36,070 nucleotides of DNA from positions 21,062 to 57,131 of the forward strand of contig JAOACB010000013.1 of the NCBI GenBank assembly GCA_026418055.1. Direction: 5' to 3'. Position 1 is the stretch's first letter. Each line of letters opens with the position of its first letter. Below are positions 4,041-30,719 of this stretch, piece after piece. This DNA is from Fimbriimonadales bacterium (GTDB taxonomy: Bacteria; Armatimonadota; Fimbriimonadia; Fimbriimonadales; Fimbriimonadaceae). The position numbers and the translations under genes were made by a program. The notes beneath the pieces were generated by a model, which ran no database searches, had not been told where the DNA came from, and saw only the letters and a list, made by a program, of their open reading frames with translations.

Positions 4041-4861
4041 CCCACGTTCTCGGAAGCATCCCGTTCGTCAACGGAGCGCCCTTGGTGCATCCGTTCCTGC
4101 GCCTGGGAGAGGCGTCCCCCGTGCGCGTGGTGGAGGCGGTCCCGTCCGACCTGCCCGGCCTGCTGGAGAGCGGTCAGGCCGAGGCGATCCTCGTGTCGAG
4201 CATCGACGCGCTGCGCACGCCCGGCCGAACGGCCTGCGCGGGCGTCTGCATCGGCACGCGAGGAATGGTCGAGAGCGTTCGGCTGTTCAGCAAGGTCCCC
4301 TTCGACGCCATCGGCACGCTGGCCGAGGACGCCAGCTCCATGACCTCCAACGCTCTGGCCCGCGTGATCCTGGCGGAGTCGTTCGGCGCGCGGCCCCGGA
4401 CCCGGCGCCTGCCCCCGAACCTCTACACGATGCTCGAGGCCTGCGACGCCTGCGTGCTGATCGGCGACATCGGCATGACCGCGGACGGAACGGGTCTGTA
4501 CGTGCTGGACCTGGGCCAGGCTTGGGTGGCGCTCACGGGACTGCCGTTCGTGTGGGCGCTGTGCGTCGGCGACGAGCGCCTGACCCCGGAGATGGCCGGT
4601 TGGATGAACTGGGCGCGCGGGCGCTCGGGTTGCGGGGCCGACGCCGAAGGGCCGCCGGACGAGCAGCTGATCCGAGCCGCCGCCGACCGGGCCGGCATGG
4701 ACCGCGAACTGGTGCGCGCCTACCTCACCCGCACGATGTCCTACAGGCTGGACGACGCGTTCCTGTCGGGCCTGCGCGCGTTCGGCCGGTACCTGGTGCG
4801 GCACGGCATCGTGGCGAGCGCCGCCCTACCCCGGTTCGTCGAGCCGGCCGACGTCGGCTAG
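4037..4861 (+). CDS. mqnA: Chorismate dehydratase, menaquinone biosynthesis (futalosine pathway)
   Basis: 274 residues. MqnA removes water from chorismate to give 3-(1-carboxyvinyloxy)benzoate, the first step of the futalosine route to menaquinone. Family features are visible along the chain: the start 'GSIPFVNGAPL' , 'LLESGQAEAILVSSID', 'SSMTSNALARVIL' near residue 100, 'CVLIGDIGM', and 'VLDLGQAWVALTGLPFVWALC'. MqnA is preferred over the related MqnD because of the TSNALA and GLPFVWA segments and the length. The start ATG overlaps the stop of the methyltransferase (ATGA), so it is the third gene of a coupled run. Its stop shares bases with the stop of the convergent GH16 gene. No other mqn gene is in the window. 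Confidence 0.88.
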   Translation: MTHVLGSIPFVNGAPLVHPFLRLGEASPVRVVEAVPSDLPGLLESGQAEAILVSSIDALRTPGRTACAGVCIGTRGMVESVRLFSKVPFDAIGTLAEDASSMTSNALARVILAESFGARPRTRRLPPNLYTMLEACDACVLIGDIGMTADGTGLYVLDLGQAWVALTGLPFVWALCVGDERLTPEMAGWMNWARGRSGCGADAEGPPDEQLIRAAADRAGMDRELVRAYLTRTMSYRLDDAFLSGLRAFGRYLVRHGIVASAALPRFVEPADVG

Positions 4862-5682
4862 CTCCTGGGCTTGTAGACCCGCACGTAGTCGATCTCGAAT
4901 CGGTGCGGGAACAGCGACTCGTCGATCCCCTGCGCGCCGCCCCAGGCTCCTCCGATCGCCAGGTTCAGGATCAGGTACTGAGGCTTGTCGAACGGCCACG
5001 CCGCGTCTCCCGTGCCTTCGTTGCGGTACACGAAGTAGCGCGTGTCGTCGAAGAAGAACTCCAGCCGGTCGGGATACCACTCGACGGCGTACACGTGGAA
5101 GCGCTCCCAAGGCCTGTCGGCCAGGATGCTGTTGCCACGGCCGTTGCGCTTGACGTGGTTGTAGGCCTCGGTGTGGATGTTCGCGTGGATGCGGTTGGGA
5201 TCGAACCCCACGTTCTCCAGGATGTCGATCTCGCCGCACTTCGGCCACCCGACGCTGCGGATGTTTTCTCCGAGGGTCCAGATCGCGGGCCACGTGCCGC
5301 GGCCCGTGGGCACCTTGGCGCGGACCTCGATGCGGCCGTACAGGATCGGCTTCTTTCCGGACGTGTGCACGCTGGCCGAGGTGATGCGGCGGCCCTGCCA
5401 GTTGTCGATCCTGGCCTCGAGGATCAGCTTGCCGTTCTCCACGCGGGCGTTCTCCCGCCGGTCGACGGTGTAGTACTGCGCCTCGTTGTTGCGCACGTAG
5501 CCCTCCTCGTAGCTCCAGAACGCCGGGTTCGGCCTGGGTCCCTTGTCGAACTCGTCGGCCCAATCCAGCTTCCAACGTTTCGGGTCGAACTTCACCAGAG
5601 TGGGCTTCGTGTCGGAACTGCCAGCCAGGCCGTCCTGAGGCGGCATCGTCGCGGCGATTCCGACGAGGAAGAGGCTCAGCAT
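4858..5682 (-). CDS. Secreted glycoside hydrolase family 16 (laminarinase-type beta-glucanase)
   Basis: 274 residues. A short hydrophobic N-terminus (MLSLFLVGIAATM) suggests export. The catalytic domain starts near residue 38 (LDWADEFDKG). It carries the GH16 active-site motif GEIDILE with nucleophile Glu151 and acid/base Glu156, then 'HVYAVEWYPDRLEFFFDD' and the closing 'FEIDYVRVYK' strand. The NIHTE segment and overall form are closest to bacterial endo-beta-1,3-glucanases, but the exact glucan cannot be fixed. The start is chosen because AGGAGG lies about 8 nt upstream; the frame is open further upstream only as a shadow of the next gene. It is convergent with mqnA and divergent from the phosphoesterase gene. 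Confidence 0.92.
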   Translation of the reverse strand: MLSLFLVGIAATMPPQDGLAGSSDTKPTLVKFDPKRWKLDWADEFDKGPRPNPAFWSYEEGYVRNNEAQYYTVDRRENARVENGKLILEARIDNWQGRRITSASVHTSGKKPILYGRIEVRAKVPTGRGTWPAIWTLGENIRSVGWPKCGEIDILENVGFDPNRIHANIHTEAYNHVKRNGRGNSILADRPWERFHVYAVEWYPDRLEFFFDDTRYFVYRNEGTGDAAWPFDKPQYLILNLAIGGAWGGAQGIDESLFPHRFEIDYVRVYKPRS

Positions 5683-5708
5683 GGTCGGTTTCCTCCTGTC
5701 TACGGGCC

Positions 5709-5714
5709 ATTTAA
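5709..5714 (-). promoter_or_regulatory. Candidate -10 box (TTAAAT) for the GH16 gene
   Basis: TTAAAT on the minus strand lies 26 nt ahead of the GH16 start, which leaves room for a leader with its AGGAGG. The whole 79-bp gap (5683-5761) is divergent. A TTGACC on the plus strand at 5722-5727 could be a -35 for the opposite gene, but its spacing to a -10 is poor. Confidence 0.25.
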
Positions 5715-5761
5715 CCCGTTCTTGACCCATGGCCGACCGCGTTCCGGGTATCCCTCGCACC

Positions 5762-7351
5762 ATGCGCACGGTCGCCCTCCTCACCCTTGCGCTCCCCGCG
5801 GCCCTCGCCCTCGCGCAGGTGCCCGATCTTCCGCAACCGAACGGCACCGCGACGGGCTTCGTGTTCGAGGACGCCAACCGCAACGGATCGCGCGATCCCG
5901 GCGAGCGCGGCTTGGCTGGCGTCGCGGTGAGCAACGGCGTCGACGTGGCCCGCACCGACCGATCGGGCCGCTGGACCCTGCCAGCCTGGGACGGCGCCGT
6001 GTTCTTCGTCGTCAAGCCCTCGGGCTGGACCGTTCCCCACGAGCCCGACGGCCGACCGCGGTTCCACCGCATCCACAAACCGAGCGGGTCCCCGCAACTC
6101 CGCTTCCCCGGGGTCGCGCCCACTGGCCCTCTGCCCGACAGCGTGGATTTCCCGCTCCGCCGGGCGCGCGAGCCCAGGACGTTCGAGGTGCTGCTGTTCG
6201 GAGACACTCAGCCCCGCAACCTGCGCGAGGTCGATTACCTGGCGCGCGACGTGGTTGCGCCGCTGGTGCCGCAGGCGCGCCGCTTCGCGTTCGGAGCGGT
6301 GCTGGGCGACATCGTGTTCGACGATCTGAGCGTCACGCTGCCGCTCGTCCGAACCGTCGGCGCCATCGCCGTGCCTTGGCGCTACGTGCTGGGCAACCAC
6401 GACTTGAACTTCGACGCCCCCGACGACCTGCTCTCCGACGAGAGCTTCGAGGCCACCTTCGGTCCGCCCTACTACTCGTTCGACGTGGGCGGCGCGCACT
6501 TCGTGGTGCTGGACGACGTCGAGTGGATCGGGGTGGAGAACGCCAAGAGGGAGAACCCCGAGCGCACGCGCGGCTACTACCGCGCCGCGCTCGGCCCGCG
6601 CCAGCTGCGCTGGCTCGAGAACGACCTGAGGCTGGTGCCCAAGGATCGCTTGGTGGTGTTGCTGATGCACATCCCGCTGAACGAGGTCCGCGAGCGCCAA
6701 GATGTGCTCCGGCTGCTGTCGCCGTTCCGGCACACGGTGTCGTTCAGCGCTCACACGCACACCATGGAGCATCGGTTCTTCGGCAGGGAGGAGGGTTGGC
6801 AGGGGGAGGGCCGTCACTGGCACATCGTGCACGGCGCCTCCTGCGGCTCGTGGTGGGGCGGCCTGCCCGACGAGAGGGGCATCCCGCACGCCACGATGTC
6901 GGACGGCACACCCAACGGCTACGGCATCCTGCGGGTGGAAGGCAACCGTTGGAGCTGGGAGTACCGGACGGTCGGCGCGGCCAGCGACGAGTCGATGCGC
7001 ATCCTGGCTCCCGACGCCGCGAGGGCCGACGAGCTGCGGGGAACGAGGGTGTTCGCCAACGTGTTCGGCGCAGGCGAGCTCTCCACGGTGGAGATCAGCG
7101 TGGCCGGGGGTGCGTGGCGACCCATGAAGCGCGTGCTGGAGCGCGACCCTTGGTACGCGGCGCTGGTGGAGCGCGACCGCGCTCAGTTGCGGCTGCCTTA
7201 TCTGCCGCTGCCGGGGCCGTCGGTCTGCACCCATCTCTGGACGACCGTCCTGACGGAGCGGTTGGAGCCAGGGGTGCACGCCCTCCGCGTGCGCGAGACC
7301 GACCCCTGGGGGCGCGTGCGCGAGTCCGTGCGGACCCTGAGGGTGGAGTGA
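5762..7351 (+). CDS. Secreted calcineurin-like metallophosphoesterase
   Basis: 529 residues. A signal peptide (about residues 1-19, ending ALALAQ) is followed by a beta-sandwich of the SdrD/MetallophosN kind (TGFVFEDANRNGSRDPGE, near 32-50), then the phosphoesterase core. Metal-binding motifs are in the expected order: FGDTQ (147-149), LGDIVFDD (181-188), GNHD (211-214), a later MHIPL, and SAHTHTMEH. The last 150 residues form a second beta-rich domain typical of the 'calcineurin-like phosphoesterase C-terminal' family. The enzyme should hydrolyse a phosphoester outside the cytoplasm; the substrate is unknown. The start is the ATG at 5762, where the signal peptide begins; an upstream in-frame ATG at 5729 is less likely. 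Confidence 0.88.
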   Translation: MRTVALLTLALPAALALAQVPDLPQPNGTATGFVFEDANRNGSRDPGERGLAGVAVSNGVDVARTDRSGRWTLPAWDGAVFFVVKPSGWTVPHEPDGRPRFHRIHKPSGSPQLRFPGVAPTGPLPDSVDFPLRRAREPRTFEVLLFGDTQPRNLREVDYLARDVVAPLVPQARRFAFGAVLGDIVFDDLSVTLPLVRTVGAIAVPWRYVLGNHDLNFDAPDDLLSDESFEATFGPPYYSFDVGGAHFVVLDDVEWIGVENAKRENPERTRGYYRAALGPRQLRWLENDLRLVPKDRLVVLLMHIPLNEVRERQDVLRLLSPFRHTVSFSAHTHTMEHRFFGREEGWQGEGRHWHIVHGASCGSWWGGLPDERGIPHATMSDGTPNGYGILRVEGNRWSWEYRTVGAASDESMRILAPDAARADELRGTRVFANVFGAGELSTVEISVAGGAWRPMKRVLERDPWYAALVERDRAQLRLPYLPLPGPSVCTHLWTTVLTERLEPGVHALRVRETDPWGRVRESVRTLRVE

Positions 7352-11283: not shown

Positions 11284-11326
11284 TCCGAGCCTTTCCGACG
11301 GTTCCGTGTGCCAACATGGGGCCGTC

Positions 11327-11992
11327 ATGCCGCTTCGCCGGGCGTTCGCCCTGCTCGAGCTGCTGGTGGTGCTCGCCATCGTCGCCGTGCTGGCGGCCAT
11401 CCTGTTGCCGGTGCTGGCCGCCGCCCGAGAGAGGGCCAAGGTGGCCGCGTGCCAGAGCAACCTGCGCCAGCTCGGCCAGTCGTTCTTCCTCTACACCGCC
11501 GACTGGGACGGCGTGTTCCCCCCGGTCTACGAATGGAAGAACCTTCTGCAGCCGTACATCCGCACCGTGAGCATCAACCGTTGCCCCAGCCGGCCGCAGC
11601 TGCCCTGGTGGTACGGTCAGGGCTACAACATTGGGTTCGCTCCGCTGGGGGTTCGCGGCTTCGCCGGGTGCGACGAGTCGGAGGTCTCCGCGCCCTCGGC
11701 CAAGATCTTGGCGGCGGAGTGGGAGCGTTGCAACGCTGGTCCGCCGGTGGGCCCGACGACGCTGTTGGCGGGCGGCGCCACCAGCTATTGGGCGGTCTGC
11801 CGGGTGCACCTGGGCACGTCCAACGTGCTGTTCGGCGACGGCCACGTGCGCTCGCTGCGTCCCGACGCCTACCACAGCAACACCGCGAGGATCGATCCGG
11901 AAGGCAGGCCGGTGCCACCGCTCGGGGAGGCGCTGCGGCCTGTGCCCGAGCCGGTGTGGCGCGCCTACTGGGACGTGCGGCACGATCCCTGA
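11327..11992 (+). CDS. Type II secretion/type IV pilin-like protein with H-X9-DG motif
   Basis: 221 residues. The N-terminus is a prepilin signal: short basic leader (MPLRRA) followed by FALLELLVVLAIVAVLAAILLP, with Glu at position +5 after the predicted cleavage site. The residue before cleavage is Ala rather than Gly, as is usual in this group of proteins. Near the C-terminus 'HLGTSNVLFGDGH' fits H-X9-DG, a signature of the large pseudopilin-like families of Planctomycetes and Armatimonadota. The protein should be anchored in the inner membrane with a periplasmic globular domain; its specific job is unknown. It is followed by a hairpin and the binding-protein array, and appears to be transcribed separately. 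Confidence 0.88.
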   Translation: MPLRRAFALLELLVVLAIVAVLAAILLPVLAAARERAKVAACQSNLRQLGQSFFLYTADWDGVFPPVYEWKNLLQPYIRTVSINRCPSRPQLPWWYGQGYNIGFAPLGVRGFAGCDESEVSAPSAKILAAEWERCNAGPPVGPTTLLAGGATSYWAVCRVHLGTSNVLFGDGHVRSLRPDAYHSNTARIDPEGRPVPPLGEALRPVPEPVWRAYWDVRHDP

Positions 11993-12061
11993 GGCTCCGT
12001 CTTCGTGGGCTCGTTCGGCGCCTCCGCATGCCGTTGGCTCGCGCCGCCATCTTGCCGGCAG

Positions 12062-12091
12062 GCCGCCTTCATAGAAAATTCTGAAGGCGGC
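12062..12091 (+). terminator. Inverted repeat between the pseudopilin gene and the binding-protein array
   Basis: Arms gccgccttc and gaaggcggc form a 9-bp perfect stem around a 12-nt A/T-rich centre, followed by ttt. It can terminate the pseudopilin transcript. Its right arm also covers the expected -35 position of the promoter at 12108, so it could instead, or also, be an operator. Confidence 0.5.
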
Positions 12092-12107
12092 TTTGGAGCT
12101 CGGTCGG

Positions 12108-12113
12108 CATAAT
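12108..12113 (+). promoter_or_regulatory. Candidate -10 box (CATAAT) heading the binding-protein array
   Basis: CATAAT matches five of six -10 consensus bases and ends 5 nt before the ATG of the first binding protein. No Shine-Dalgarno is present. The arrangement predicts a leaderless transcript that begins at the start codon and could run through four lipoprotein genes and the kinase. Confidence 0.45.
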
Positions 12114-12118
12114 GGGTT

Positions 12119-12967
12119 ATGGCTTCCAGGAGCCTCGGATGGTGGCTGGCTCTGGCGCTCGCGGCGGTCAGCTGCCAGGCCCCAGGCCGCACCGGCGTCA
12201 GGGACCCTTCGGTGCGGCCGCAACCCGAGGCTGCGCCGGCCGCCCGGCCGACGCTCCGGCTCGTGTGCAACGAGTGGTGGCCCTACGCAGGTCGCGAGGG
12301 AGCGGACAGAGAGGGCTTCGCCGTGGACCTCGTGCGGGAGGCCCTGCGGAGGATGGGCTACGGGCTGGACTACCGCGTGAGGCCCTGGGCTCGCTGCGTG
12401 CTCGAGATGCAGACCGGCGAGACGGACGGCGTGCTCGCCGCCTATCCGATCGAGGGCCGCGACTGGCTGCGCGGCTCGGTGCCGCTCGGGCTGGGTCCGA
12501 ACTGGGTCGACGAGTTCCTCGTGCTGAAGCGGAAGGGTTCCCGATGGCGCTTCTCCGGGCCCGGCTCGCTCGCCTCGGCGCGCGTCGCGGTGGTCGAGGG
12601 TCACCACTATCCCGCGCCGATCGAGCGTCGCCTGTACGACGGCAGGGAGGGGCTGGTCGCGGTTTCTGGCGACGACCCCACGCCGCGCCTTGTCAGGCTC
12701 TTGGCCGAAGATCGCGTGGACGCCGCCGTCGACGGGCGTCTGGTGCTGGAGGCCTTCCTCGCCGAACACCCCGAGTGGCGGAAGAGGGTCGAGCCTGCAG
12801 GCACCCTGCGGTGGCGGCCGGTGTTCGTGCAGCTGCGCCCCGACCTCCCCGGGGCCCGCGAGATCCTGACGCGCCTGGACGCGGCTTTGCTGGAGGTCTA
12901 CGCGTCGCCGGGGTTCCCCGGACTTCTGGCCCGTTATGGATTGAGCCCGGACGATGGCGCGCGGTGA
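12119..12967 (+). CDS. Solute-binding lipoprotein 1 (SBP_bac_3-like), array member
   Basis: 282 residues. A lipoprotein signal ends at the lipobox AVSC (Cys19). After a Pro/Ala-rich linker the binding domain starts near residue 45. It has the two-lobe order of the amino-acid-type periplasmic binding proteins: 'CNEWWPYAG', 'EGFAVDLVREAL', 'VRPWARC', 'TDGVLAAYPIEGRDW', a crossover 'RVAVVEGHHYP', 'VDAAVDGRLVL', and a closing 'LLARYGL'. By analogy with HisJ-type proteins, the Arg in EGRD could bind a carboxylate and the Asp in AVDG an amino group; this is inference. No permease or ATPase gene accompanies it. It shares W.PY.G, RPW.R and YGL with the next three genes, so all arose by duplication. 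Confidence 0.85.
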   Translation: MASRSLGWWLALALAAVSCQAPGRTGVRDPSVRPQPEAAPAARPTLRLVCNEWWPYAGREGADREGFAVDLVREALRRMGYGLDYRVRPWARCVLEMQTGETDGVLAAYPIEGRDWLRGSVPLGLGPNWVDEFLVLKRKGSRWRFSGPGSLASARVAVVEGHHYPAPIERRLYDGREGLVAVSGDDPTPRLVRLLAEDRVDAAVDGRLVLEAFLAEHPEWRKRVEPAGTLRWRPVFVQLRPDLPGAREILTRLDAALLEVYASPGFPGLLARYGLSPDDGAR

Positions 12968-13004
12968 GGTGCGTGGAAGAAGGAAGCAACGAGGAGGTTG
13001 GCCG

Positions 13005-13853
13005 GTGAGGGGCGGCGTGGCTCTGGTTGGGTTGGGGATGCTCGGTCTGACGCTCTGCCTCGCCGGATGCCCGCAGGCGGGCCCGACCGAGGACGGCGCC
13101 GAAGGCCGACCCCTGCCGAACGCCCAGCAACCGTCGAGCGAGCGCCGCCTCTTGTTCGCGGGGAACGCGTGGTGGCCGTACACGGGGGAGTCCCACGACG
13201 GTCGCCAAGGGTTCACGGTGGACTTGGTGCGTGCCGCCCTCCGCCGGATGGGCTTCGAGATGGACTATGTGGTCCGACCCTGGTCGCGGGTCGTGCGCGA
13301 GCTGGAGGCGGGTCGGATCGACGGAACCACGTGCGCGTGCTCCGGGCCCGAGAGGCCGTGGCACTTCACCCGGGCGAACGTCGGTCTGGGTCCGGGCTGG
13401 GTGAGCGGCGTGACGGTGCTGCGGTCCAAGGCCTCCCGATGGCGGTGGCGGGGACCCGACTCGCTCCGGACGGCCAGGTTGGCGCTGGTGGCGAACTACC
13501 ACTACCCCAGTCCGCTGAGGGAGCGCCTAGCCCGCCCGGACCGGCGCCTGGTGGTGGTGACCGGCGAGGACCCCACGCGCCGGCTCGTTGCCTTAGCCGC
13601 GAAAGGAACCGTGGACGCGATCGCCGACGACCGACTGGTTCTGCAGGCTACTCTGGCGCGCATGCCGGCCGAGGCCGCGAGGCTGGAGGAGGTCGGCTTC
13701 CTGCCCGCTTGCAACCTGAAGGCGGCGTTCAGCCCCCGCCTGCCGGACGGCGCTCGGCTCGCACGGGAGCTGGATCGGGCGATGCGCGAGGTTTACCGGT
13801 CGCCGGAATTTCCGTTGATCTTGTCCCGTTACGGCCTTCGGCCGGAGCCTTGA
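13005..13853 (+). CDS. Solute-binding lipoprotein 2 (SBP_bac_3-like), array member
   Basis: 282 residues from the GTG at 13005, chosen because AGGAGG lies 9 nt upstream and the start then gives a clean lipoprotein signal (lipobox LAGC, Cys22). The alternative ATG at 12954 would overlap gene 1 and add a charged extension. Shared motifs are 'GNAWWPYTG', 'QGFTVDLVRAAL', 'VRPWSRV', 'IDGTTCACSGPERPW', 'YHYPSPL', 'GEDPTRRLVA', 'VDAIADDRLVL' and 'LSRYGL'. Both candidate ligand contacts are present (Arg in PERP, Asp in ADD), so it groups with member 1. Cys residues in CAC replace the small residues at this place in member 1. It should be held on the membrane surface facing the periplasm. The ligand is unknown. 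Confidence 0.85.
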   Translation: MRGGVALVGLGMLGLTLCLAGCPQAGPTEDGAEGRPLPNAQQPSSERRLLFAGNAWWPYTGESHDGRQGFTVDLVRAALRRMGFEMDYVVRPWSRVVRELEAGRIDGTTCACSGPERPWHFTRANVGLGPGWVSGVTVLRSKASRWRWRGPDSLRTARLALVANYHYPSPLRERLARPDRRLVVVTGEDPTRRLVALAAKGTVDAIADDRLVLQATLARMPAEAARLEEVGFLPACNLKAAFSPRLPDGARLARELDRAMREVYRSPEFPLILSRYGLRPEP

Positions 13854-13905
13854 GGCGGTCGTGGGCTGGCGAAGAGAAGGCCCGCTTCGAGAGAATGGAG
13901 GAATC

Positions 13906-14739
13906 ATGTTGGGCCGGCCGAGCCCCCTGAAGACGCTCTGGGCCACGGTGCCGTTGCTCGTCGCGGGCTGCGGCACGTCTCCCCCTCGGCTGGAGCCCGA
14001 GGGCAGTGCGGGGCTTCCCCCGCGGCCACCGAGGACTCTGCTGGCCGTGTCGGACGAGTGGTGGCCGTACGTGGGGCCTACCGGCGCCGAGCGAGAGGGC
14101 TTTGTGATGGATCTCGTCCGCAGGGCGCTCGAGCCTCAGGGCTACGCGGTCAGGCTCGAGATCCGGCCGTGGACCCGGTGCCTGCTGGACGCCGAGCAAG
14201 GGCGCGCGGATCTGGTGCTGTGCGCGGTGCCCGAGGAGGCTCCGGGCCTGCTGTTCGGCGCGGAACCAGTCGGCGGCACCGAGCGCGGCGTGTACGTGCG
14301 GCGAGGGTTGAGGTGGTCGTATCAGGGAGTGTCCTCGTGGCGCCCGCTGCGCCTCGCCGTGGTCGAGGGCTACCGCTACCACCCCGAGTTCGACGCCTTC
14401 CTCGAGGAGCACAGGCGGCGCGGCCGCGTGTTGGCGGTGCGCGGCGAGAAGCCGCTGGAGCGGCTGATCGCGGCGGTCAGGACCGGAAGGGCCGACGCCG
14501 TGCTGGAGAACGCGATCGTCATGCGGGCGCACCTGCAGGTCCATCCGAAGGACGCCGAGCTGCTGCGCGAGGCGGCGACGCTGCCGGGGCACGCGGTGTA
14601 TGTGGCTGTTTCCCCGAAGACCCCGAACGCCAGGGACGTGGTCGCTGCCTTGGACCGAGGCCTGGCCGGCCTGCGGCGGACCGGCGAGACCGACCGGCTG
14701 ATGCGATCCTACGGCGTGGAGCCGTTCGAGGCGCCGTGA
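13906..14739 (+). CDS. Solute-binding lipoprotein 3 (SBP_bac_3-like), array member
   Basis: 277 residues from the ATG at 13906, which has GGAGG a few bases upstream; an earlier in-frame start at 13861 gives an odd charged leader. The lipobox is VAGC (Cys22). Motifs are 'SDEWWPYVG', 'REGFVMDLVRRAL', 'IRPWTRC', 'ADLVLCAVPEEAPG', 'VVEGYRYHPEF', 'GEKPLERLIA' and 'ADAVLENAIVM', with 'MRSYGVEP' at the end. Compared with members 1 and 2, the candidate ligand Arg is gone (EEAPG) and the Asp is Glu (LEN), which predicts a different ligand. It is closest to member 4. The 52-bp gap from member 2 has no terminator. Confidence 0.84.
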   Translation: MLGRPSPLKTLWATVPLLVAGCGTSPPRLEPEGSAGLPPRPPRTLLAVSDEWWPYVGPTGAEREGFVMDLVRRALEPQGYAVRLEIRPWTRCLLDAEQGRADLVLCAVPEEAPGLLFGAEPVGGTERGVYVRRGLRWSYQGVSSWRPLRLAVVEGYRYHPEFDAFLEEHRRRGRVLAVRGEKPLERLIAAVRTGRADAVLENAIVMRAHLQVHPKDAELLREAATLPGHAVYVAVSPKTPNARDVVAALDRGLAGLRRTGETDRLMRSYGVEPFEAP

Positions 14740-14795
14740 AAACTCGGTTTGGCGGGAACGGGAAACCGGTGGACAATACGTAAGGGGGTTCAACC

Positions 14796-15677
14796 GTGCC
14801 TGTCGAACGGGATGGGGGCGCCTGGCGGAGGTCGGCGTTGGCGATCGGCTTGTTGGTTGCGGTCGGAGCAACGGGTTGCTTCGCCGAGCCCGTCGTCGCG
14901 CCGGCGGAGGATGCCGACAATCGGCCGAGCCGGGCGCCCCGCAAGCCGCTGAACCCTCCGCCGGAGGCCCGCAAGGCCCTGCTCCTGGTTTCCGACGAGT
15001 GGATGCCCTACACCGGACGCCAAGGAGGCCGAGAGGGCTTCGTGACGGAGCTGGCCAAGGAGGCTCTGCGCAGAGCGGGCCACGAGGTTCGCTACGAGGC
15101 GCGACCCTGGAACCGATGCTTGGCGGACGTCGGCGCGGGTTTGGCGGACGCGGTGCTCTGCGCCGATCCCTCCGAGGCGCCGGACCTGGTGTTCAGCCGC
15201 GAGCCGATCGCGGTCACCAAGCCGACTCTGTTCGTGCACCGGGGCTTCACCGTGGGGGGGCGGCGGTGGCGCTACGACGGGGAGGCGTCGCTCGAGGGGT
15301 TGCGGCTCTCGGTGGTCGACGGTTACCGCTACGCCGAGCCGATCCGCCGCTACGTCGAGCGGCATCGCGGAAGCTCCCTGGTGCTCCCGGTTCGCGGCGA
15401 GGACCCGGTCGAGCGCCAAGTCCGCGCGCTGCTCGCGGGAAGGGTGGATGTGTTCGCCCAGAACGAGCTGGTGGTGCGCTGGAGGCTGCGGGGAAGGTTA
15501 GAGGCCAGCCGCATCGAGCTTGCGGGGCGCACGCCAGAGGGCCGGCTCTACGTGGCGTTCAGCCCCAAGCGGAGGGATGCGCGGGACATCGCCGCCGCGT
15601 TCGATCGGGAGTTGCGCGTCCTGTGGGCATCCGGACAGGCTGCCGCGATCGAAAGGCGCTACGGCCTCGGTCCCTGA
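14796..15677 (+). CDS. Solute-binding lipoprotein 4 (SBP_bac_3-like), array member
   Basis: 293 residues from a GTG preceded by a G-rich ribosome-binding stretch (AAGGGGG). The lipobox is ATGC (Cys28), followed by a longer Pro/Arg-rich linker than in the other three. Motifs are 'SDEWMPYTG' (Met in place of the second Trp), 'REGFVTELAKEAL', 'ARPWNRC', 'ADAVLCADPSEAPD', 'VVDGYRYAEPI', 'GEDPVERQVR', 'VDVFAQNELVV' and 'IERRYGLGP'. The Arg position again reads EAPD, and the Asp position is Gln (AQN), so it is the most diverged of the set at the likely pocket. It ends 61 bp before the histidine kinase gene. Confidence 0.84.
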   Translation: MPVERDGGAWRRSALAIGLLVAVGATGCFAEPVVAPAEDADNRPSRAPRKPLNPPPEARKALLLVSDEWMPYTGRQGGREGFVTELAKEALRRAGHEVRYEARPWNRCLADVGAGLADAVLCADPSEAPDLVFSREPIAVTKPTLFVHRGFTVGGRRWRYDGEASLEGLRLSVVDGYRYAEPIRRYVERHRGSSLVLPVRGEDPVERQVRALLAGRVDVFAQNELVVRWRLRGRLEASRIELAGRTPEGRLYVAFSPKRRDARDIAAAFDRELRVLWASGQAAAIERRYGLGP

Positions 15678-15738
15678 GGAGGAGAATCGGGTTGAACTTG
15701 CCGAAAGGTAGGGTGCGGAGAATCGCAAAAGAGAAGCG

Positions 15739-17595
15739 ATGAGGTTCCGAGACATGGGCGTCCGGTTCCGGCTGGCTTTGGTCCTGCTGTTCGTGGGCCT
15801 GGCAGCGATCCTCGCCCTGTTCGCCTACCGTTCGCGGCTCAACGAGCAGGAGGCCAAGGGAACGGCTCTCGAAGTCGCAAGCCGGAAGGCGAACAAGCTC
15901 GCCGCGGCCCTCGCCGCACCGCTGTACGAGGTCAGCCTGCCTTCCGTGGAGTCTCTGGTCGCCTCGGAGTTCGACAACCCTGCGGTGATGCAGATCGCCG
16001 TGAGGGAAGGCCCCGACCGCAGGCTGATCCTGGTGTACCGCCGTCTGGCCGATCAGCCGAGGAGGGTGGAGGCCGTTCGGTTTCGGCGGGACTGGCAGTC
16101 CCGGGAGTACGCGGTGGTGTACCAGCGGCCGGGCGATGCGGGCGAGGTGCTCGGCACCGTGGCGGTGTGGGCCGATCCCGCGCTTGCCCTGCAAGACCTC
16201 CAAGCGCGCACGCAGAAACGCCTCATCGAGGAGGTCGTGCTGGTGCTGCTGCTCACGGCCTTGGCCGGCGGAATCGCCGACCGCCTCGTGGCCCAACCGC
16301 TGTCCCAACTTGGGACCGTCCTCCGGCGCACGGCGGACACGGCGGGGGCTTCCGTGCTCGACACGGCGGGCACCCTCGAAACGTTCGAGCGTTCTCTGGC
16401 GGCCGTGCCTTCGAGGAGCCCCGAGATCGAGGAGTCCAAGCGGAGCCTCAGGATGCTGGTGCAGTCCCTGGTGCAGAGGCAGCGGGAGCTGGAGGGGATC
16501 CTGGGCAACGCCCTGGGAGCGATGGCCTGTTTCGAGATCCCCAGCTTCAGGGTGCTGTACGGCAACGAGGAGTTCTGGACGAAAATGGGTTCCACGGTGG
16601 CGGATGGGCATGCGGTGCGGGAGCTTATCACGGCGAACACGCATTCCGACGACGTTGAGGCCCTGTGGGCCACCTACGCCGAGGCGGTTTCCGGCCGCGT
16701 GTCATCGGTGGTGGAATGCCGGCAGATCGGACCCGACGGGAGGGTGGAGCGCTGGTGGAGATTCCGCTTGGGTCCTTTCGACCGGGACGAGACCGGCCGC
16801 GTCACCGGCACGGTGCTGCACGCCATCGACGTGACCGACCTGCGCCGGCTGCAGGAGGAGCTCGAGCGCGCCAACTCGCAACTGGAGGAGGCCGTGGAGG
16901 AGCGCACCCGCGAGCTGGTCGAGGCCAACCGCGAGCTGGAGTCGTTCGCCTACAGCGTGTCGCACGACCTGCGGGCGCCGCTCCGCTCGATCAACGGCTT
17001 CGGGCGCATCCTACTGGAGGACCATGCGGACAAGCTCGACGAGGATGCGCAGGACTGCGTGCGGCGCATGGTGGCCGCCGCAGAGCGGCTCGGGGCGCTG
17101 GTGGACGCGCTGCTGCACCTGTCGCGCGTCGCGCGCGCCGAGGTGCGCCGGACCGAGGTGGACGTGAGCGCCGTCGCCGAGGAGCTGCTGGCGGACCTGC
17201 GCGAGGAGAATCCCGACCGCAGCGTGGAGATCGTGGTCCACCCCGGCGCGTTCGTCAAGGCCGACGCGGCGCTCACGCGGTCCGTGCTGCAGAACCTGCT
17301 CTCCAACGCTTGGAAGTACACGCGGAGACGACCGGACGCGCGCATCGAGGTGGGGCCTTGCGAGGTCTGCGGAAAGCCGGGGTTCTTCGTGCGGGACAAC
17401 GGCGTGGGCTTCGAGCCCGGGTTGGCCGCGCAGGCGTTCAAGCCGTTCCAGAGGCTGCACACGGACAAGGAGTTCGAGGGCCTCGGCGTCGGCCTGGCGA
17501 CCGTGCAGCGGATCGTCGCCCGCCACGACGGCCGCATCGAGGTGCAGGCGGCTCCGGGCCAGGGGGCCGAGTTCCGGGTGACGCTGTCGCCCTAG
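15739..17595 (+). CDS. Membrane sensor histidine kinase with PAS-like domain, end of the binding-protein array
   Basis: 618 residues. Membrane segment 1 is near residues 11-30 and segment 2 near 165-184, enclosing about 130 residues outside the membrane. A linker and a PAS-like domain (about 255-370, 'MACFEIPSFRVLYGNEEFW') are followed by a coiled coil (370-405). HisKA has the phospho-accepting His409 (SVSHDLRAPL). The ATPase domain shows N-box 'LQNLLSNAWKYT', G1 'VRDNGVGFEPG' and G2 'GLGVGLATVQRIV', of the phytochrome/bacteriophytochrome-like HisKA class. There is no receiver domain, and no response regulator gene lies nearby. Position and orientation behind four binding lipoproteins suggest that these deliver ligand signals to its outer domain, as in systems where free periplasmic proteins activate a kinase; this is inferred. 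Confidence 0.9.
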   Translation: MRFRDMGVRFRLALVLLFVGLAAILALFAYRSRLNEQEAKGTALEVASRKANKLAAALAAPLYEVSLPSVESLVASEFDNPAVMQIAVREGPDRRLILVYRRLADQPRRVEAVRFRRDWQSREYAVVYQRPGDAGEVLGTVAVWADPALALQDLQARTQKRLIEEVVLVLLLTALAGGIADRLVAQPLSQLGTVLRRTADTAGASVLDTAGTLETFERSLAAVPSRSPEIEESKRSLRMLVQSLVQRQRELEGILGNALGAMACFEIPSFRVLYGNEEFWTKMGSTVADGHAVRELITANTHSDDVEALWATYAEAVSGRVSSVVECRQIGPDGRVERWWRFRLGPFDRDETGRVTGTVLHAIDVTDLRRLQEELERANSQLEEAVEERTRELVEANRELESFAYSVSHDLRAPLRSINGFGRILLEDHADKLDEDAQDCVRRMVAAAERLGALVDALLHLSRVARAEVRRTEVDVSAVAEELLADLREENPDRSVEIVVHPGAFVKADAALTRSVLQNLLSNAWKYTRRRPDARIEVGPCEVCGKPGFFVRDNGVGFEPGLAAQAFKPFQRLHTDKEFEGLGVGLATVQRIVARHDGRIEVQAAPGQGAEFRVTLSP

Positions 17596-17628: not shown

Positions 17629-18561
17629 ATGAAGGTGGCGGTGATCGGCGCCGGCAAGGTGGGGTCGGCGGTGGTGGGCGACCTGATGCACGTGGGCGCG
17701 GTTTCGGAGATCGTGCTCGTCTCGCGCGACCGCTTCCGCGCGGAGGGCGAGGTGCTCGACTACCAGCACACCACGTCGTTCACCCACTACCCCTGCGTCA
17801 ACGTGACGGTCGGCGGGTACGAGGACTGCGCGGACGCCGACCTTGCGGTGATCGCGGCTGGGCCGAGCATCGAGAAGGGTCAGACGCGCATCGATCTGGC
17901 TGCCCAGAACGTGCAGGTTCTGAGGGAGATCCTGCAGGGATTGGACCGACACTGCCCCGGGTCGCAGCTGATCGTCGTGACCAATCCCGTCGACGTGCTG
18001 ACGTACGCCGCCTACCGGCTGTCGGATCGGCCCCGCAACCGGGTGATCGGCACGGGCACGATGATCGACACCGCGAGGCTGATCCGCTCCATCGCCGCGG
18101 CGTACCGGATCGACCCGAAGAACGTGTTCGTGTACATGCTGGGCGAGCACGGCGAGACGTCGTTCGCGGCTTGGAGCATGGCCAACATCTGCGGCCTGGG
18201 GCTGGAGGAGTTCGGGCGGCTGCACGTGGCCGCGAGCCTCGATCGGGCCGCCGAGGAGGAGAGGGCCAAGCAGGCCGGCTACGAGATCCTGCGGCGCAAG
18301 GGCTACACCAGCCACGGCATCGCCGCGGCCGTCGCGCGGCTGGTGATCGCCATCGCCAGCGACGAGAAGTGCATCCTGCCGGTGTCGGTTCCCTTGGAGG
18401 GCGAGTACGGGCTGAGGAACACGGCGCTGTCGGTGCCCTGCGTGGTCGGCGCGGGCGGCGTGGAGAAGGTTCTGGAATTCCCGCTCAGCCTGGAGGAGCG
18501 GCGCAGGCTGCAGGCGAGCGCCGACCACCTCGCGGCGGCGATCCAGCAGGCGGGGCTCTGA
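17629..18561 (+). CDS. L-lactate/malate dehydrogenase family 2-hydroxyacid dehydrogenase
   Basis: 310 residues with the NAD-binding start VIGAGKVGSAV. The catalytic set of this family is present: Arg87 (GQTRIDL, equivalent to Arg109), Asp147 and Arg150 (IDTAR, equivalent to Asp168/Arg171) and His174 (LGEHGE, equivalent to His195). Thr227 (KGYTSHG) matches the lactate dehydrogenase Thr246. The specificity residue 102, Gln in lactate and Arg in malate dehydrogenases, aligns with Ile81 (AGPSIEKGQ). The enzyme therefore probably interconverts a 2-oxo and a 2-hydroxy acid using NAD, but neither lactate nor malate is assured; a larger apolar substrate is possible. It is a single gene converging on tmRNA. 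Confidence 0.85.
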   Translation: MKVAVIGAGKVGSAVVGDLMHVGAVSEIVLVSRDRFRAEGEVLDYQHTTSFTHYPCVNVTVGGYEDCADADLAVIAAGPSIEKGQTRIDLAAQNVQVLREILQGLDRHCPGSQLIVVTNPVDVLTYAAYRLSDRPRNRVIGTGTMIDTARLIRSIAAAYRIDPKNVFVYMLGEHGETSFAAWSMANICGLGLEEFGRLHVAASLDRAAEEERAKQAGYEILRRKGYTSHGIAAAVARLVIAIASDEKCILPVSVPLEGEYGLRNTALSVPCVVGAGGVEKVLEFPLSLEERRRLQASADHLAAAIQQAGL

Positions 18562-18637: not shown

Positions 18638-18992
18638 TGGTGGAGGCGGGGAGAATCGAACTCCCTTCCAAAACCGTCGCCTCTCAGGCGTCCACGAGCG
18701 TCTCCCCGGTTTGGCGTTTCGGCGCCGGCGACGCCCCGGGGCGGGCCTGCCGACGGCCTAGCCTGGTTGGTTTAGGGATCCTCGCCTCAGGCGGCGGCTC
18801 GGAGCCCGATCCAGCTGTTTTCCACACCCGCTGCCGGCCCTGCTGGCCCAGGCCGGGCGGATGCGCGGCTCAATTAGGCCGCGTAGGCGTAGTTGTTGTT
18901 CGCCTTTGCTTTGTTGCCGCTTTTTACGAGGCCAGCGGCGCCTCGGCTCGCAACCCGAGATCGAACCGGCCCTGTCGAACCCGTTCGCCCCC
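18638..18992 (-). ncRNA. ssrA: Transfer-messenger RNA (tmRNA)
   Basis: The minus strand reads as a complete one-piece tmRNA of 355 nt. The 5' end GGGGGCG pairs with CGCCTCC just before an encoded 3' CCA, with one G-U pair. Next to the 5' end is the conserved GGGTTCGACAGGG segment. The 3' tRNA-like half has a T arm (GGGAG, loop TTCGATT, CTCCC). The central part carries the well-known CTCGTAAAAAGC sequence just before the tag reading frame. tmRNA frees stalled ribosomes and tags the incomplete protein for proteolysis, with SmpB as partner (not in this window). G/C-rich pseudoknot arms follow the tag. No clear promoter is seen in front, so processing from a longer transcript is possible. Confidence 0.93.
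18874..18903 (-). other. tmRNA proteolysis-tag reading frame (ANNNYAYAA)
   Basis: Codons GCG AAC AAC AAC TAC GCC TAC GCG GCC TAA on the minus strand give the tag ANNNYAYAA. The GCG resume codon lies 15 nt after CTCGTAAAAAGC, within a base of the spacing in E. coli. An earlier in-frame GCA two codons upstream (AK...) is the only alternative start. The C-terminus YAYAA differs from the common YALAA. Confidence 0.8.
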
Positions 18993-25549: not shown

Positions 25550-27076
25550 TCAGCGCGCGCCGACGACCTCCACCGTGCTGACGCTGAGCGCCGGAGCCTG
25601 GAAGCGCAACGCGCCCCTGCCGACTTGGGGCTGGAACCGGACCGCGGAGCGCAGGTTGGCGCCGTCCAACCGGTATCCCGCCGCGGACCGGATGGAAAAC
25701 CCTCGGAGCGAGACCTCGAAGGAGGTGGGAGACGAGCTTTTGTTGACGGCGACCAGCACCAGCCTTCCCGGCCGGTCGGGGCTGGACGAGGCGTACAGCG
25801 AGCTGACCGCGGGGTCGCCGCCCTGCACCCTGAGCGAGCGGGATCCGAACTTGCCGCCGCGCCCGTCGTAGTCGCGGAAGGCGCGGAACGCCGCCACCGT
25901 CGCAGGCCTGTCGGGGGAGATGCCCCAGTGAGCCGCCGCGAACACGCCGTGGCGACCAAAGATGCCCAGCACGTCGGCCTGCGCGACCAGACCGCTGGCG
26001 TCGCGGCCTCCGCCGTAGTCGTATTCGGTGATCGCCAGGCGCGTGCCCGGATACTGCCGCCGGATCTGCTCGAGCAGACCGGGAAGCAGCGCGATCGGCT
26101 TCCTGCCCAGGTTCTCGGCGATCCAGCTGTCCTCGACGTAGGTCGGGTCCCACAGCGAGCGCGGGGCCTGCACGCGCGCGGCGACCAGCGCGGGGGTGGC
26201 CTCCGGCGAGGTCACTCGGACGCCGCCCCCGCGAGCCTCGGGGTACCAGTGGATGTCGAGCACGTCGAGCAGCCGCCTCCCGGCCCGCTGCCCCGCGGCG
26301 CGCATGCCCGCAAGGTAGAAGTCCAGGAAGTCCCTGCCGTTCGCGTCCGGCGCGTCCTGGAACGTGCGGAAGCCCTGCCAGCCGTAGCTGACGGGCCCGA
26401 ACACCAGGGACCGGGGAGCAACGGCCTTGATGGCTTGGGCGTACTCGATGCCGATCTGCAGGATCTGCGCGTAGGTGGGGTTCCTCGGCCAGATGCGCTG
26501 GTGGGTGAAGCCCCACAGATCCACCTCGTTGTCGAGGCTGAACCAAACGGGAGCGTTCGGCCGTGCGAACTTCGAGATCCAGGCTGCGAACTCGTCCTGG
26601 TACACCGCGCGGTCGGTGGTGTCCGGAGGATAGGCGAGCGGGCCGTTCTTGCGCGGATACGAGCGGTGGAAGCGCGTCTCGAGGTGGTTCGGCGTCTGGG
26701 CCACGTCGCCGTCGGCCTTCTTGTCGGCGGCGACGTAGCCGGTGCAGGGCACGGTCACGAGCGCGGCGGCGCCGTGCCGCACGGCGTCCTCCACGAACGT
26801 GCGCACGGTCCAGCCGGGCTCGTCGGTCTGGCCCATGTAGCCGTCGTTCTGATGGTGCCAGTCGCTGCCGGCGTTGCTGGCGTTGGTCTCCCAGTTGTAC
26901 GCCGACATGCGGTTTCCCCCCTGCCGGGCCAGCGGGAAGAGCGGACCGAGCCTCCTCCAGTCGGGGAAGTTCGCGCCGTAGATGTAGGGGGAGATCGGCT
27001 GGCCGACCGCGGGGTCGACCGTGTAGGCCTGCGTCGGGGTCTGCGCCAGCGCGAGCGCTGCCAAGAGGGTGTGCAT
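25550..27076 (-). CDS. Secreted glycoside hydrolase family 44 (endoglucanase/xyloglucanase)
   Basis: 508 residues. A short signal peptide (MHTLLAALALAQTPTQA) is followed by the GH44 N-terminal signature 'ISPYIYGANFPDW' and 'GGNRMSAYNWETNASNAG'. The acid/base Glu184 lies in 'SLDNEVDLW' and the nucleophile Glu351 in 'ITEYDYGGG'. The last 90 residues form the beta-sandwich that completes the family fold. GH44 enzymes cut the beta-1,4-glucan backbone of cellulose derivatives and xyloglucan. There is no carbohydrate-binding module or dockerin. It is the last gene before an intrinsic terminator. GH1 and GH42 enzymes nearby could remove glucose and galactose from the products, which fits xyloglucan use (inference). 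Confidence 0.92.
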   Translation of the reverse strand: MHTLLAALALAQTPTQAYTVDPAVGQPISPYIYGANFPDWRRLGPLFPLARQGGNRMSAYNWETNASNAGSDWHHQNDGYMGQTDEPGWTVRTFVEDAVRHGAAALVTVPCTGYVAADKKADGDVAQTPNHLETRFHRSYPRKNGPLAYPPDTTDRAVYQDEFAAWISKFARPNAPVWFSLDNEVDLWGFTHQRIWPRNPTYAQILQIGIEYAQAIKAVAPRSLVFGPVSYGWQGFRTFQDAPDANGRDFLDFYLAGMRAAGQRAGRRLLDVLDIHWYPEARGGGVRVTSPEATPALVAARVQAPRSLWDPTYVEDSWIAENLGRKPIALLPGLLEQIRRQYPGTRLAITEYDYGGGRDASGLVAQADVLGIFGRHGVFAAAHWGISPDRPATVAAFRAFRDYDGRGGKFGSRSLRVQGGDPAVSSLYASSSPDRPGRLVLVAVNKSSSPTSFEVSLRGFSIRSAAGYRLDGANLRSAVRFQPQVGRGALRFQAPALSVSTVEVVGAR

Positions 27077-28263: not shown

Positions 28264-29310
28264 TCAGTCCACCTTTGGATTGAGAGGGGGGGTCGAGGTG
28301 CTGCCCCGAACGTCGAGGCCGCACGGCAGGACGAGGTCGTAGGGCTCGGGCGACTCTCCCCGGATGCGCCGCACCAGGAGGTCGACCGCCTTGGAGCCGA
28401 TGTCGACGAGCGGTTGGGAGACCGAGGTGAGCGGGGGCTCGACCTCGTTGCAGAAGGCGGTGGAGTCGAACCCCACCACGGAAAGCTGTTCGGGCACGCG
28501 CACTCCGAAGAGCCGCGCGCGGTCGATGACGGTGGCCGCGACCCCGTCGTGCTGGCAGACGAGGGCCGTGTGGCGAGGGCCTGCGGCGAGGTAGCGGTCG
28601 AGATTCTCCAGGTCGTGCGCTCCCGGATAGAGCAGCACGTCGTCCTCGGTGACTGGGACGCCCAGCGAGTCCATCCGGTTCCGGAAGGCCGTCATCCGCT
28701 CCGAGGTCTCGGTGAACGGCCGGCTCTCGCCGACGACGAAGCCGATGCGCCGGTGGCCCAGGTTCCAGAGGTGGTCGACCGCCAGGCGGATGCCCCCGGC
28801 GTTGTCGCACCGCACGCTCGGGAAGCGACCCTCGAGAAGCGCGGATGGCGTGTGGATCAGCACCAGGGGCACCCGGGAGGCCAGCAGCATCCTGCGGTTC
28901 TCCTCCACGGGATCGGTGCTGTACCAGATCAGCCCGTCGAAGCGGCCGTCGTTGATGCCCTCTTCGGGGGAGCCGCCCATCAGCTTGGGACACAGCGTGA
29001 CCGAGTAGCCGTGGCGGAACGCGCCCTCCACCAGCCCGTCCATCAGCGCGGCGAAGTACCGCGAGCCCTGGGAGAAGATCGGCCTGGCGAAGCCGATGCC
29101 GTGCAGGATGCCGATCATCGACGTTTGGCCGTCCCGGAAGCTCCGGGCGAACACGTTGCAGCGGTAGCCCAGCTCCTCGGCCGCCTGGCGCACTCGCTCG
29201 GCGGTGGCGGGGCTCACCCGCACGGTGGTGGCCCGTCCGTGCAGCACGCGCGACACGACCACGGGGGAGACCCCCGCCTTCTTCGCCACGTCGCGCATCG
29301 TCACAGCCAT
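28264..29310 (-). CDS. LacI family transcriptional regulator
   Basis: 348 residues. The helix-turn-helix is at the N-terminus (MRDVAKKAGVSPVVVSRVLHG), followed by the hinge helix region (SPATAERVRQAAEELGY). The effector domain resembles periplasmic sugar-binding proteins: 'IGILHG', 'DGLIWYSTD', 'HRRIGFVVGE', 'LSVVGFDSTAFC' and 'PPLTSVSQP'. It starts 16 bp after the GH1 stop and ends 5 bp before the pseudopilin gene. It likely represses its own operon and the divergent GH42 gene in the absence of a sugar inducer; the palindrome and repeats at 30720-30758 are candidate sites. The inducer is unknown, with a beta-glucoside or beta-galactoside most likely from context. Confidence 0.93.
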   Translation of the reverse strand: MAVTMRDVAKKAGVSPVVVSRVLHGRATTVRVSPATAERVRQAAEELGYRCNVFARSFRDGQTSMIGILHGIGFARPIFSQGSRYFAALMDGLVEGAFRHGYSVTLCPKLMGGSPEEGINDGRFDGLIWYSTDPVEENRRMLLASRVPLVLIHTPSALLEGRFPSVRCDNAGGIRLAVDHLWNLGHRRIGFVVGESRPFTETSERMTAFRNRMDSLGVPVTEDDVLLYPGAHDLENLDRYLAAGPRHTALVCQHDGVAATVIDRARLFGVRVPEQLSVVGFDSTAFCNEVEPPLTSVSQPLVDIGSKAVDLLVRRIRGESPEPYDLVLPCGLDVRGSTSTPPLNPKVD

Positions 29311-29326: not shown

Positions 29327-30682
29327 TCAAAGGTTGGATCCGTTGCAGCGGATCGTCTCGGCGTACCAGTGGAAGGAGTCCTTGGGCACCCGCCTCTGGG
29401 TGGCGTAGTCGACGTACACGAGGCCGAACCTGCGGTTATAGCCGAACGCCCACTCGAAGTTGTCCAGGAACGACCAGTGCAGGTAGCCGAGCACCTGCAC
29501 TCCCTCCTGGGCGGCCTGGGCCAGCTGGCGCAGGTGCCGACGGGTGTAGTCGATGCGCTGAGGGTCGTGCACCTTGCCGTCCAGAGCGACCCAGTCCATG
29601 CCCGCCAGGCCGTTCTCGGTGATGGCGATCGGCTTTCCGTACCTCTCCCAGAACTGCCTGGGGCCCCAGTACAGGCAGCGATCGTCGACGATCCAGTCCA
29701 TCATGGTCTTCGGCGCCCCCTGCGGCTCCGGCGAGGCTGCGGCTCGGCCCTCTTCGTCGGCCGACACCTCCCAGCCGGTGTACACGTTCAGGCCGATGAA
29801 GTCGATCGGTTCGGAGATGGCGCGCATCTGCTCGTCGGTCGCCTTCGGGGCCTTCTCGCCGAACGTCTCCAGCGCCTGGTCGGGGTACCGCCCGAAGACG
29901 ATCGGGTCGATCCACCAGCCCATGCCCCAAAGCGAGTCGGGCGCGGCGTCGAACGTTCGCCGGGCCGCGGCCTCCCGGTCGGCCGCGCTCTGCGGGTCCT
30001 TCGGAATGCCGGGGCCGATCGCGGGCACGACGCCCACTCGGCAACCGGGGGAGTGCGCCCGCAGGACCTGCGTGGCCTTCCCGCTGGCGACCAGCGTGTG
30101 GTGCGAGGCCAGCAGCACCTCGTCGAACCGCAACCGGTCTCCGGGCGCGTGATGACCCGACTGCAGGCCGAGGCTGATGAAGCACTGCGGCTCGTTGAGG
30201 GTCATCCAATGCCGCACCCTGTCGCCGAGCCTCCTCGCGACGATCTCGGCGTAGTCCGCGAACCAAGAGGCGCTGTCGGGGTTCAGCCACCCCCCGCGGT
30301 GGTACAGCGACAGTGGGAAGTCCCAGTGGAACAGCGTGACCCAAGGCTGGATGCCCGCCTCCAGCAGCGCGTCGACCAGGCGGTCGTAGAATTCCAGGCC
30401 CGCCTCGTTGACGGTTCCGACGCCCTCGGGCAGCACGCGGGGCCAGGAGACGCTGAACCGGTACGCCCGGACGCCCAGCTCGCGCATCAGCGCAACGTCC
30501 TCGCGCCACAAGCGGTAATGGTCGCACGCAATGTCGCCGTTGTGGCCGTGGTACACGGCGCCCGGCTTGCGGCAGAACATGTCCCACACGCAGGGCCCGC
30601 GCCCATCCCCCGTCGCGGCACCCTCGATCTGGTACGCCGCCGTCGCCACACCCCAAGCGAAACCGTCCGCGAATTGCGCCAT
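29327..30682 (-). CDS. Glycoside hydrolase family 1 beta-glucosidase
   Basis: 451 residues, the usual GH1 length, with no signal peptide, so cytoplasmic. 'FAWGVATAAYQIEGA' is the GH1 N-terminal signature. The acid/base Glu164 is in 'TLNEPQ' and the nucleophile Glu356 in 'ITENGL'. 'HWSFLDNFEWAFGYNRRFGLVYVDY' near the end carries the substrate-binding Trp and Glu residues. The enzyme releases terminal beta-glucose, or other beta-linked sugars, from oligosaccharides. The start is the ATG at 30682, where the family N-terminus begins; the longer open frame upstream is not coding. It is the first gene of the minus-strand unit, read from the intergenic region shared with GH42. Confidence 0.94.
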   Translation of the reverse strand: MAQFADGFAWGVATAAYQIEGAATGDGRGPCVWDMFCRKPGAVYHGHNGDIACDHYRLWREDVALMRELGVRAYRFSVSWPRVLPEGVGTVNEAGLEFYDRLVDALLEAGIQPWVTLFHWDFPLSLYHRGGWLNPDSASWFADYAEIVARRLGDRVRHWMTLNEPQCFISLGLQSGHHAPGDRLRFDEVLLASHHTLVASGKATQVLRAHSPGCRVGVVPAIGPGIPKDPQSAADREAAARRTFDAAPDSLWGMGWWIDPIVFGRYPDQALETFGEKAPKATDEQMRAISEPIDFIGLNVYTGWEVSADEEGRAAASPEPQGAPKTMMDWIVDDRCLYWGPRQFWERYGKPIAITENGLAGMDWVALDGKVHDPQRIDYTRRHLRQLAQAAQEGVQVLGYLHWSFLDNFEWAFGYNRRFGLVYVDYATQRRVPKDSFHWYAETIRCNGSNL

Positions 30683-30719
30683 CGCACGATCCTGAGGGCA
30701 AGAACGATGCCCGACGCCC

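Follow-up and report, generated by a model that had tools for sequence, protein, structure and literature searches.

Four lipoprotein genes and a sensor histidine kinase gene that lie side by side in a Fimbriimonadaceae genome probably encode a sensor kinase coupled to several receptors of the binding-protein kind, and this arrangement suggests that one signalling protein reads several extracellular chemicals. The block is located on contig 39 of a metagenome-assembled genome of this Armatimonadota family (2.89 Mb, 97%-complete, 70% GC), inside the 36,070-nucleotide stretch that was analysed (hereafter the window). It comprises four genes for solute-binding proteins (SBPs) of the SBP_bac_3 type, the gene for the histidine kinase (HK) and, as its last member, a gene for L-lactate dehydrogenase (LDH). 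The activation of HKs by SBPs is a well-known principle and what is unusual here is just how many receptors there are; a literature search of partial coverage found no report of several periplasmic binding proteins acting on one kinase.

Coordinates and Pfam matches agreed with the sequence-only reading, a previous description of this DNA, in that four consecutive same-strand SBP_bac_3-type lipoprotein genes are followed, with gaps of 37–61 bp, by a HK with two transmembrane segments (TMs). That description closed the block at the HK and overlooked the LDH gene. From the first SBP gene through the HK gene to LDH, the gaps are 37, 52, 56, 61 and 33 bp. The codon periodicity of the block genes was coding-like (GC3 0.85–0.90), which marks these open reading frames (ORFs) as genes. 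Lipoprotein gene 2 has a GTG start at 13005 with a Shine-Dalgarno sequence (aggagg), and a longer alternative beginning at an ATG at 12954 is possible.

The genome was also searched for transport genes. The four lipoproteins were the only SBP_bac_3 proteins found in it. The permeases of the class working with this fold family, those for polar amino acids (PAAT, TC 3.A.1.3), are recognized by TIGR01726 (HEQRo 3-TM domain), and the search with this model gave no matches in the three genomes of the genus, the same search being positive in 11 of 14 control genomes. The observation made from the sequence alone that permease and ATPase genes are missing holds for the block, and the class-matching permease elsewhere, which had been named as a finding that would speak against signalling, is absent from the three genomes by this search. 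Several SBPs sharing one transporter are known, and 18 BPD_transp_1 permease domains are encoded elsewhere in the genome. The lipoproteins could thus be uptake receptors sharing a permease and an ATPase encoded at a distance, with the HK regulating that uptake only. However, none of the 18 domains is of the polar-amino-acid class, the closest ABC importer (C39:4142-5709, about 27 kb upstream of the block) follows its own large binding-protein gene, and the distant relatives of these SBPs cluster with two-component genes, as described below. We consider such shared transport improbable.

Conservation of the block was studied in two relatives of the same genus, an uncultured Fimbriimonadaceae bacterium (CALGMO01; G001) and Armatimonadetes bacterium UBA8783 (DPBN01; G002). 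The gene order in G002 is a prepilin-like gene, four SBP genes, HK and LDH, and in G001 at least two SBP genes, HK and LDH lie on a 5-kb contig, which then ends. The synteny proposed as a check of the initial description was therefore found in all three genus genomes, and among 291 Armatimonadota the block is present in these three alone. In this set, the SBP search gave three strong matches and two weak others, one of them (L087) an SBP-kinase fusion, and the search with the HK sensor domain gave three strong matches and four weak ones (E 5e-4 to 9e-4); the phyletic range of the SBP array is the same as that of the sensor domain. Among the genus genomes the HK is 53–56% identical. The SBP genes of the relatives overlap by 4–22 nt at some junctions, which suggests translational coupling typical of an operon.

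The four window lipoproteins, each with a lipobox-like cysteine motif (Table 1), share 31–45% pairwise identity. Their Pfam SBP_bac_3 (PF00497) E-values are 3e-5, 1.9e-7, 2.3e-5 and 8.4e-7 for copies 1 to 4, respectively. Copies 2 and 4 (31.3 and 29.3 bits) exceed the curated cut-off of 26.4 bits, and copies 1 and 3 (24.2 and 24.6 bits) fall just under it and are clear homologs of the former. A profile built from ten SBP sequences matched amino-acid-binding proteins in the PDB (E 2e-9). Weak profile matches to cyclohexadienyl dehydratase and to ancestral forms of it (E 5e-5 to 0.003) raised the alternative that the lipoproteins are enzymes with the SBP fold, similar to this dehydratase. However, plain amino-acid-binding proteins matched equally or better, and both the lipobox anchoring and the presence of four diverged copies beside a HK make such a role scarcely credible.

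In the SBP_bac_3 fold family, an Arg binds the carboxylate of the ligand and an Asp its alpha-amino group. Pocket residues were read by alignment to AncQR (4zv1) and 2yln, with the Arg column being uncertain by one position. Copy 2 and its ortholog keep both canonical amino-acid-binding residues, the Arg (SGPER) and the Asp (ADDR). In copy 1 an Arg is kept next to the carboxylate-Arg column and a Gly stands in place of the alpha-amino Asp, and copies 3 and 4 have neither canonical residue. Since these residues differ among the copies, the pockets appear to be non-redundant. The four copies probably bind different ligands, and on the simplest reading of the alignment copy 2 would be the sole plain amino-acid binder among them.

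The copies also differ in their evolutionary history. The ortholog of copy 1 (L015:766-1635) is 61% identical and that of copy 2 (L015:1632-2513) is 70% identical, with a dN/dS of 0.25, copy 2 being the most conserved between the window and G002. By identity comparison and by the tree, copy 3 has no 1:1 ortholog in the arrays of the relatives. In the SBP tree, window copies 1 and 2 group with copies 1 and 2 of G002, copy 3 of G002 and G001 is placed next to copy 1, and copies 3 and 4 of the window group with copy 4 of G002 and G001. The content of the slots thus appears to have turned over, with four slots being kept in both complete arrays. Ortholog dN/dS values, which are rough because dS is near 1 for several pairs, were 0.20–0.34 for the SBPs, 0.27–0.56 for the HK and 0.08–0.16 for LDH, and those of the SBPs indicate that these proteins are kept functional.

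These data bear on whether all copies take part in signalling. Only one of them, probably copy 2, might signal to the HK, the rest being scavengers or decoys or binding unrelated ligands to some other end. The retention of both Arg and Asp in copy 2, its high conservation and the turnover of copies 3 and 4 fit this proposal. However, both complete arrays retain four copies despite the changes of identity, and purifying selection is clear in the G001/G002 ortholog pairs of copies 3 and 4 (dN/dS 0.20–0.22), so that a single signalling copy seems to us rather unlikely.

The HK contains TM1, a periplasmic single-Cache/PAS-like domain, TM2, a PAS domain (PAS_4 match), HisKA and HATPase_c, and its phospho-acceptor motif SHDLRAPL, with His409, is conserved. 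Neither a receiver nor an SBP domain was detected in it with Pfam. No Pfam family, CHASE8 (PF17152) included, matched the periplasmic domain even at E 10, and sequence comparisons of the sensor domain with Pfam and the PDB gave nothing usable. The AlphaFold model of the whole HK was too poor to be used (pLDDT 58) and the sensor domain was therefore modelled alone with AlphaFold2, together with three relatives (pLDDT 86.2). The model shows two helices followed by five strands, with the long TM helices flanking them. Among solved structures, the periplasmic output domain of CdgS9, a LapD ortholog, is the closest to it in fold (Z 13.4, 4.2 Å over 112 residues; Foldseek E 1.5e-4), followed by CitA-type PAS domains (Z about 11.5; citrate-binding CitA, Z 11.6 and 2.0 Å rmsd) and other ligand-binding Cache domains; the periplasmic domain of LuxQ gave a Z of 8.2. 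The output domain of LapD binds the periplasmic protease LapG (PMC4359373). The HK sensor is consequently predicted from its modelled structure to have a single-Cache/PAS fold, a type for which binding of a periplasmic protein is known, although likeness of fold is no proof of function. LapD differs from the window HK in that it signals from the inside outwards via GGDEF-EAL, the output of the HK being HisKA-HATPase, and in that its protease partner is held by a GWxQ loop, a motif that was not seen in the three genus kinases.

The surroundings of related SBP genes in other bacteria agree with a signalling role. The survey of arrays outside the Armatimonadota covers 17 loci. Distant SBP homologs of Betaproteobacteria and Pseudomonas (20–27% identity) adjoin HK genes or HK and response-regulator genes. 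At locus L029 the SBP gene comes after those of a LytS-type kinase and a LytTR regulator, with an overlap of start and stop, and five other loci (L032, L033, L035, L036 and L038) have the same layout as judged by gene size and first residues. At L031 the SBP gene lies beside an OmpR/CusS-type pair, L030 being similar, and in Pseudomonas alcaligenes (L034) it directly follows a CHASE8-bearing kinase gene. No permease genes were evident beside the distant homologs, some of whose neighbours were scanned with Pfam. The window block resembles L029, L031-L036 and L038 in its homologous SBPs, in the adjoining or overlapping two-component genes and in having no evident permease; it differs from them in that they have a single SBP, without an array being seen, and other HK classes.

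In other Armatimonadota families, two hybrid kinases carry fused SBP_bac_3 domains, two in L100:780-4064 and one in L087:4823-7792, together with PAS, HisKA, HATPase and receiver domains; these are BvgS-like proteins outside the Proteobacteria. The position of the distant homologs next to two-component genes, together with these fusions in the phylum, makes this branch of the SBP family look like a signalling one. A further Armatimonadota locus (L101) with two SBP_bac_3 matches was rejected as an array: the second match lies in an ORF whose first part is that of a glycosyl hydrolase, and a kinase was not found there.

Comparison with characterised systems places the block among the three-component SBP-HK systems, its SBP genes being adjacent to the HK gene and the extracytoplasmic domain of the HK lying between two TMs. 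Like CuaD-CuaSR, LuxP-LuxQ, TorT-TorS and TctC-TctE, it combines an unfused SBP with a HK that has a periplasmic or extracellular domain. However, each of those systems has one SBP per HK and the window block has four, and CuaDSR has an adjacent regulator whereas the window block has neither an adjacent regulator nor a transporter. CuaD is a lipoprotein SBP that binds the extracellular domain of CuaS (PMC10384115), which shows by analogy that a lipoprotein SBP can work as the partner of a HK. The SBP-activated kinases known so far pair a single SBP with a single HK, and among characterised SBP-HK couples 10 of 11 are reported to be encoded by neighbouring genes (PMC11113362). The likeness to BvgS consists in SBP_bac_3 domains feeding a PAS-HisKA kinase, with a two-domain fused version occurring in the phylum (L100). 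The difference is that the Venus flytraps of the window are four separate lipoproteins and that a Cache/PAS periplasmic domain belongs to the kinase itself.

From these observations we propose that four lipid-anchored Venus-flytrap proteins, duplicated and diverged and with different pockets, would bind small extracellular solutes at the membrane surface. A flytrap closed by its ligand (or an open one) would dock on the HK dimer at its periplasmic single-Cache/PAS-like domain, and docking would shift TM2 and, through the PAS domain and a coiled linker, change autophosphorylation at His409. The lipoproteins would have no role in transport and a response regulator encoded elsewhere would carry the signal to its output. 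Of the multi-receptor array put forward in the sequence-only reading, the parts that stood are that it is unfused, free of transporter genes, conserved in the genus, of the same range as the sensor domain, distantly related to SBPs encoded beside HK and response-regulator genes, and associated with a sensor domain whose predicted fold is of a protein-binding kind; the contact between SBP and HK and the ligands are what we infer. Only tentatively do we extend the proposal to a combinatorial array, in which at least four anchored flytraps with different ligands could contend for the same kinase dimer or occupy it together.

Several points count against this proposal, the first being that the docking itself belongs to its conjectural part. 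In Pseudomonas aeruginosa, AgtS and AruS do not bind their neighbouring SBPs (PMC11113362), and the caution that adjacency may occur without binding applies fully to the window block. The co-occurrence of SBPs and HK rests on one genus and so corresponds to a single evolutionary event. The block encodes no response regulator, and no receiver domains were found among the window genes scanned. Orphan HKs are common, a nearby regulator being the usual companion and not an obligatory one. The comparison of the HK sensor with the CHASE8-bearing HK was collinear but weak (hhalign E 0.016, probability 2.9%). Co-evolution of SBPs and sensor was considered from the divergence of the HK, whose periplasmic part is 45% identical and kinase part 74% identical between the window and G002, against 89% and 79%, respectively, between G001 and G002; this argument was dropped, because the PAS region diverges as well as the sensor and the rate pattern is not specific evidence.

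In addition, a small molecule could be the direct ligand of the HK domain, as in CitA. The HK would then sense directly through its Cache/PAS domain, with the lipoproteins as mere co-regulated neighbours, and both the fold match to citrate-binding CitA (Z 11.6) and other ligand-binding Cache domains and the documented adjacency without binding speak for it. However, the SBPs and the sensor domain share an identical phyletic range, and the domain that matches best in structure is one that binds a protein. We regard direct sensing as unlikely and keep the binding-protein-coupled kinase as the probable function of the block.

Table 1. Features of the lipoprotein-kinase block and its boundaries (positions in the window).
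Feature	Position	Strand	Basis
Hairpin, 10-bp GCCGCCTTCA/TGAAGGCGGC core, extended; between prepilin-like gene and lipoprotein gene 1	12053-12110	+	Folding
CATAAT, 5 nt 5' of lipoprotein gene 1 ATG; possible -10 box of a putative leaderless promoter	12108-12118	+	Sequence reading
Lipoprotein gene 1, 282 aa, SBP_bac_3-like	12119-12967	+	ORF and Pfam; AVSC lipobox
Lipoprotein gene 2, 282 aa, SBP_bac_3	13005-13853	+	ORF and Pfam; LAGC lipobox
Lipoprotein gene 3, 277 aa	13906-14739	+	ORF and Pfam; VAGC lipobox
Lipoprotein gene 4, 293 aa, SBP_bac_3, GTG start	14796-15677	+	ORF and Pfam; ATGC lipobox
Two-TM sensor HK, 618 aa	15739-17595	+	Pfam; fold model of sensor part
HK periplasmic domain, residues 32-163; predicted docking surface for lipoproteins	15832-16227	+	AlphaFold2 model
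LDH, last gene of conserved block	17629-18561	+	TIGR01771
tmRNA gene, convergent; downstream block boundary	18638-18992	-	ARAGORN; Rfam RF00023, 150.6 bits

No terminator-like sites, and no promoters, were detected between 11700 and 18800 by a consensus scan, which is insensitive in this 70% GC genome as shown by the promoters also going undetected. The earlier claim that no terminator separates the genes is therefore upheld by the scan and weakened by its insensitivity. The hairpin that precedes lipoprotein gene 1 (folded over 12050-12115) had -30.2 kcal/mol and a z of -3.91, with 0 of 200 shuffles being as good; it has no T-run, hence it was not scored as a terminator by the scan, and is a probable transcript boundary. 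The motif CACAAT precedes the orthologous gene in the relative (L015) at the spacing of the window CATAAT and, together with the hairpin, these boxes suggest that the transcript starts at lipoprotein gene 1. A GATAAT is found at L015:2610-2622. CATAAT and GATAAT are both 5–6 nt 5' of lipoprotein start codons, which suggests leaderless promoters in the genus, and copy 3 of G002 may have its own promoter.

The prepilin-like gene 5' of the block (about 11320-11992; N-terminal LLELLVVLAIVAVLAAILLP, C-terminal FGDGHVRSLRPDAYHSN) is likewise found upstream in G002; a scan from 11308, possibly in a wrong frame, gave no Pfam match for it. At the other end, the tmRNA gene, with the tag ANNNYAYAA, explains the conserved spurious reading frames 3' of LDH. 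The surrounding carbohydrate genes (25553-27076, 28267-29310, 29330-33067 and 4858-6207, all on the minus strand) encode glycoside hydrolases GH44, GH1 (C-terminal part of a 1246-aa frame) and GH16 and a LacI-type regulator.

LDH scored 307 bits with TIGR01771 (cut-off 303.55). It is 88–90% identical in both relatives, at the same position, and the LDH relatives of the other family genomes sampled are only 31–37% identical, so LDH may have entered together with the block. Its presence suggests a link to carbon or fermentation metabolism, and it may be a target of the signalling or simply a cotranscribed gene. A second HK-dehydrogenase pair, a HK paralog beside malate dehydrogenase on contig C124, was dropped, since a separate 496-aa gene lies between them in the relatives.

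If the signalling reading is true, this genome is a clean case, its SBP_bac_3 proteins apparently all serving signalling. The turnover of the array between species would make it possible to map the SBP-kinase interface from sequence. If the array is combinatorial, its ligand range would evolve through duplication and replacement of small lipoprotein genes, with the kinase left unchanged. A conserved four-to-one block without a matching transporter would be a natural example of one kinase integrating several ligands.

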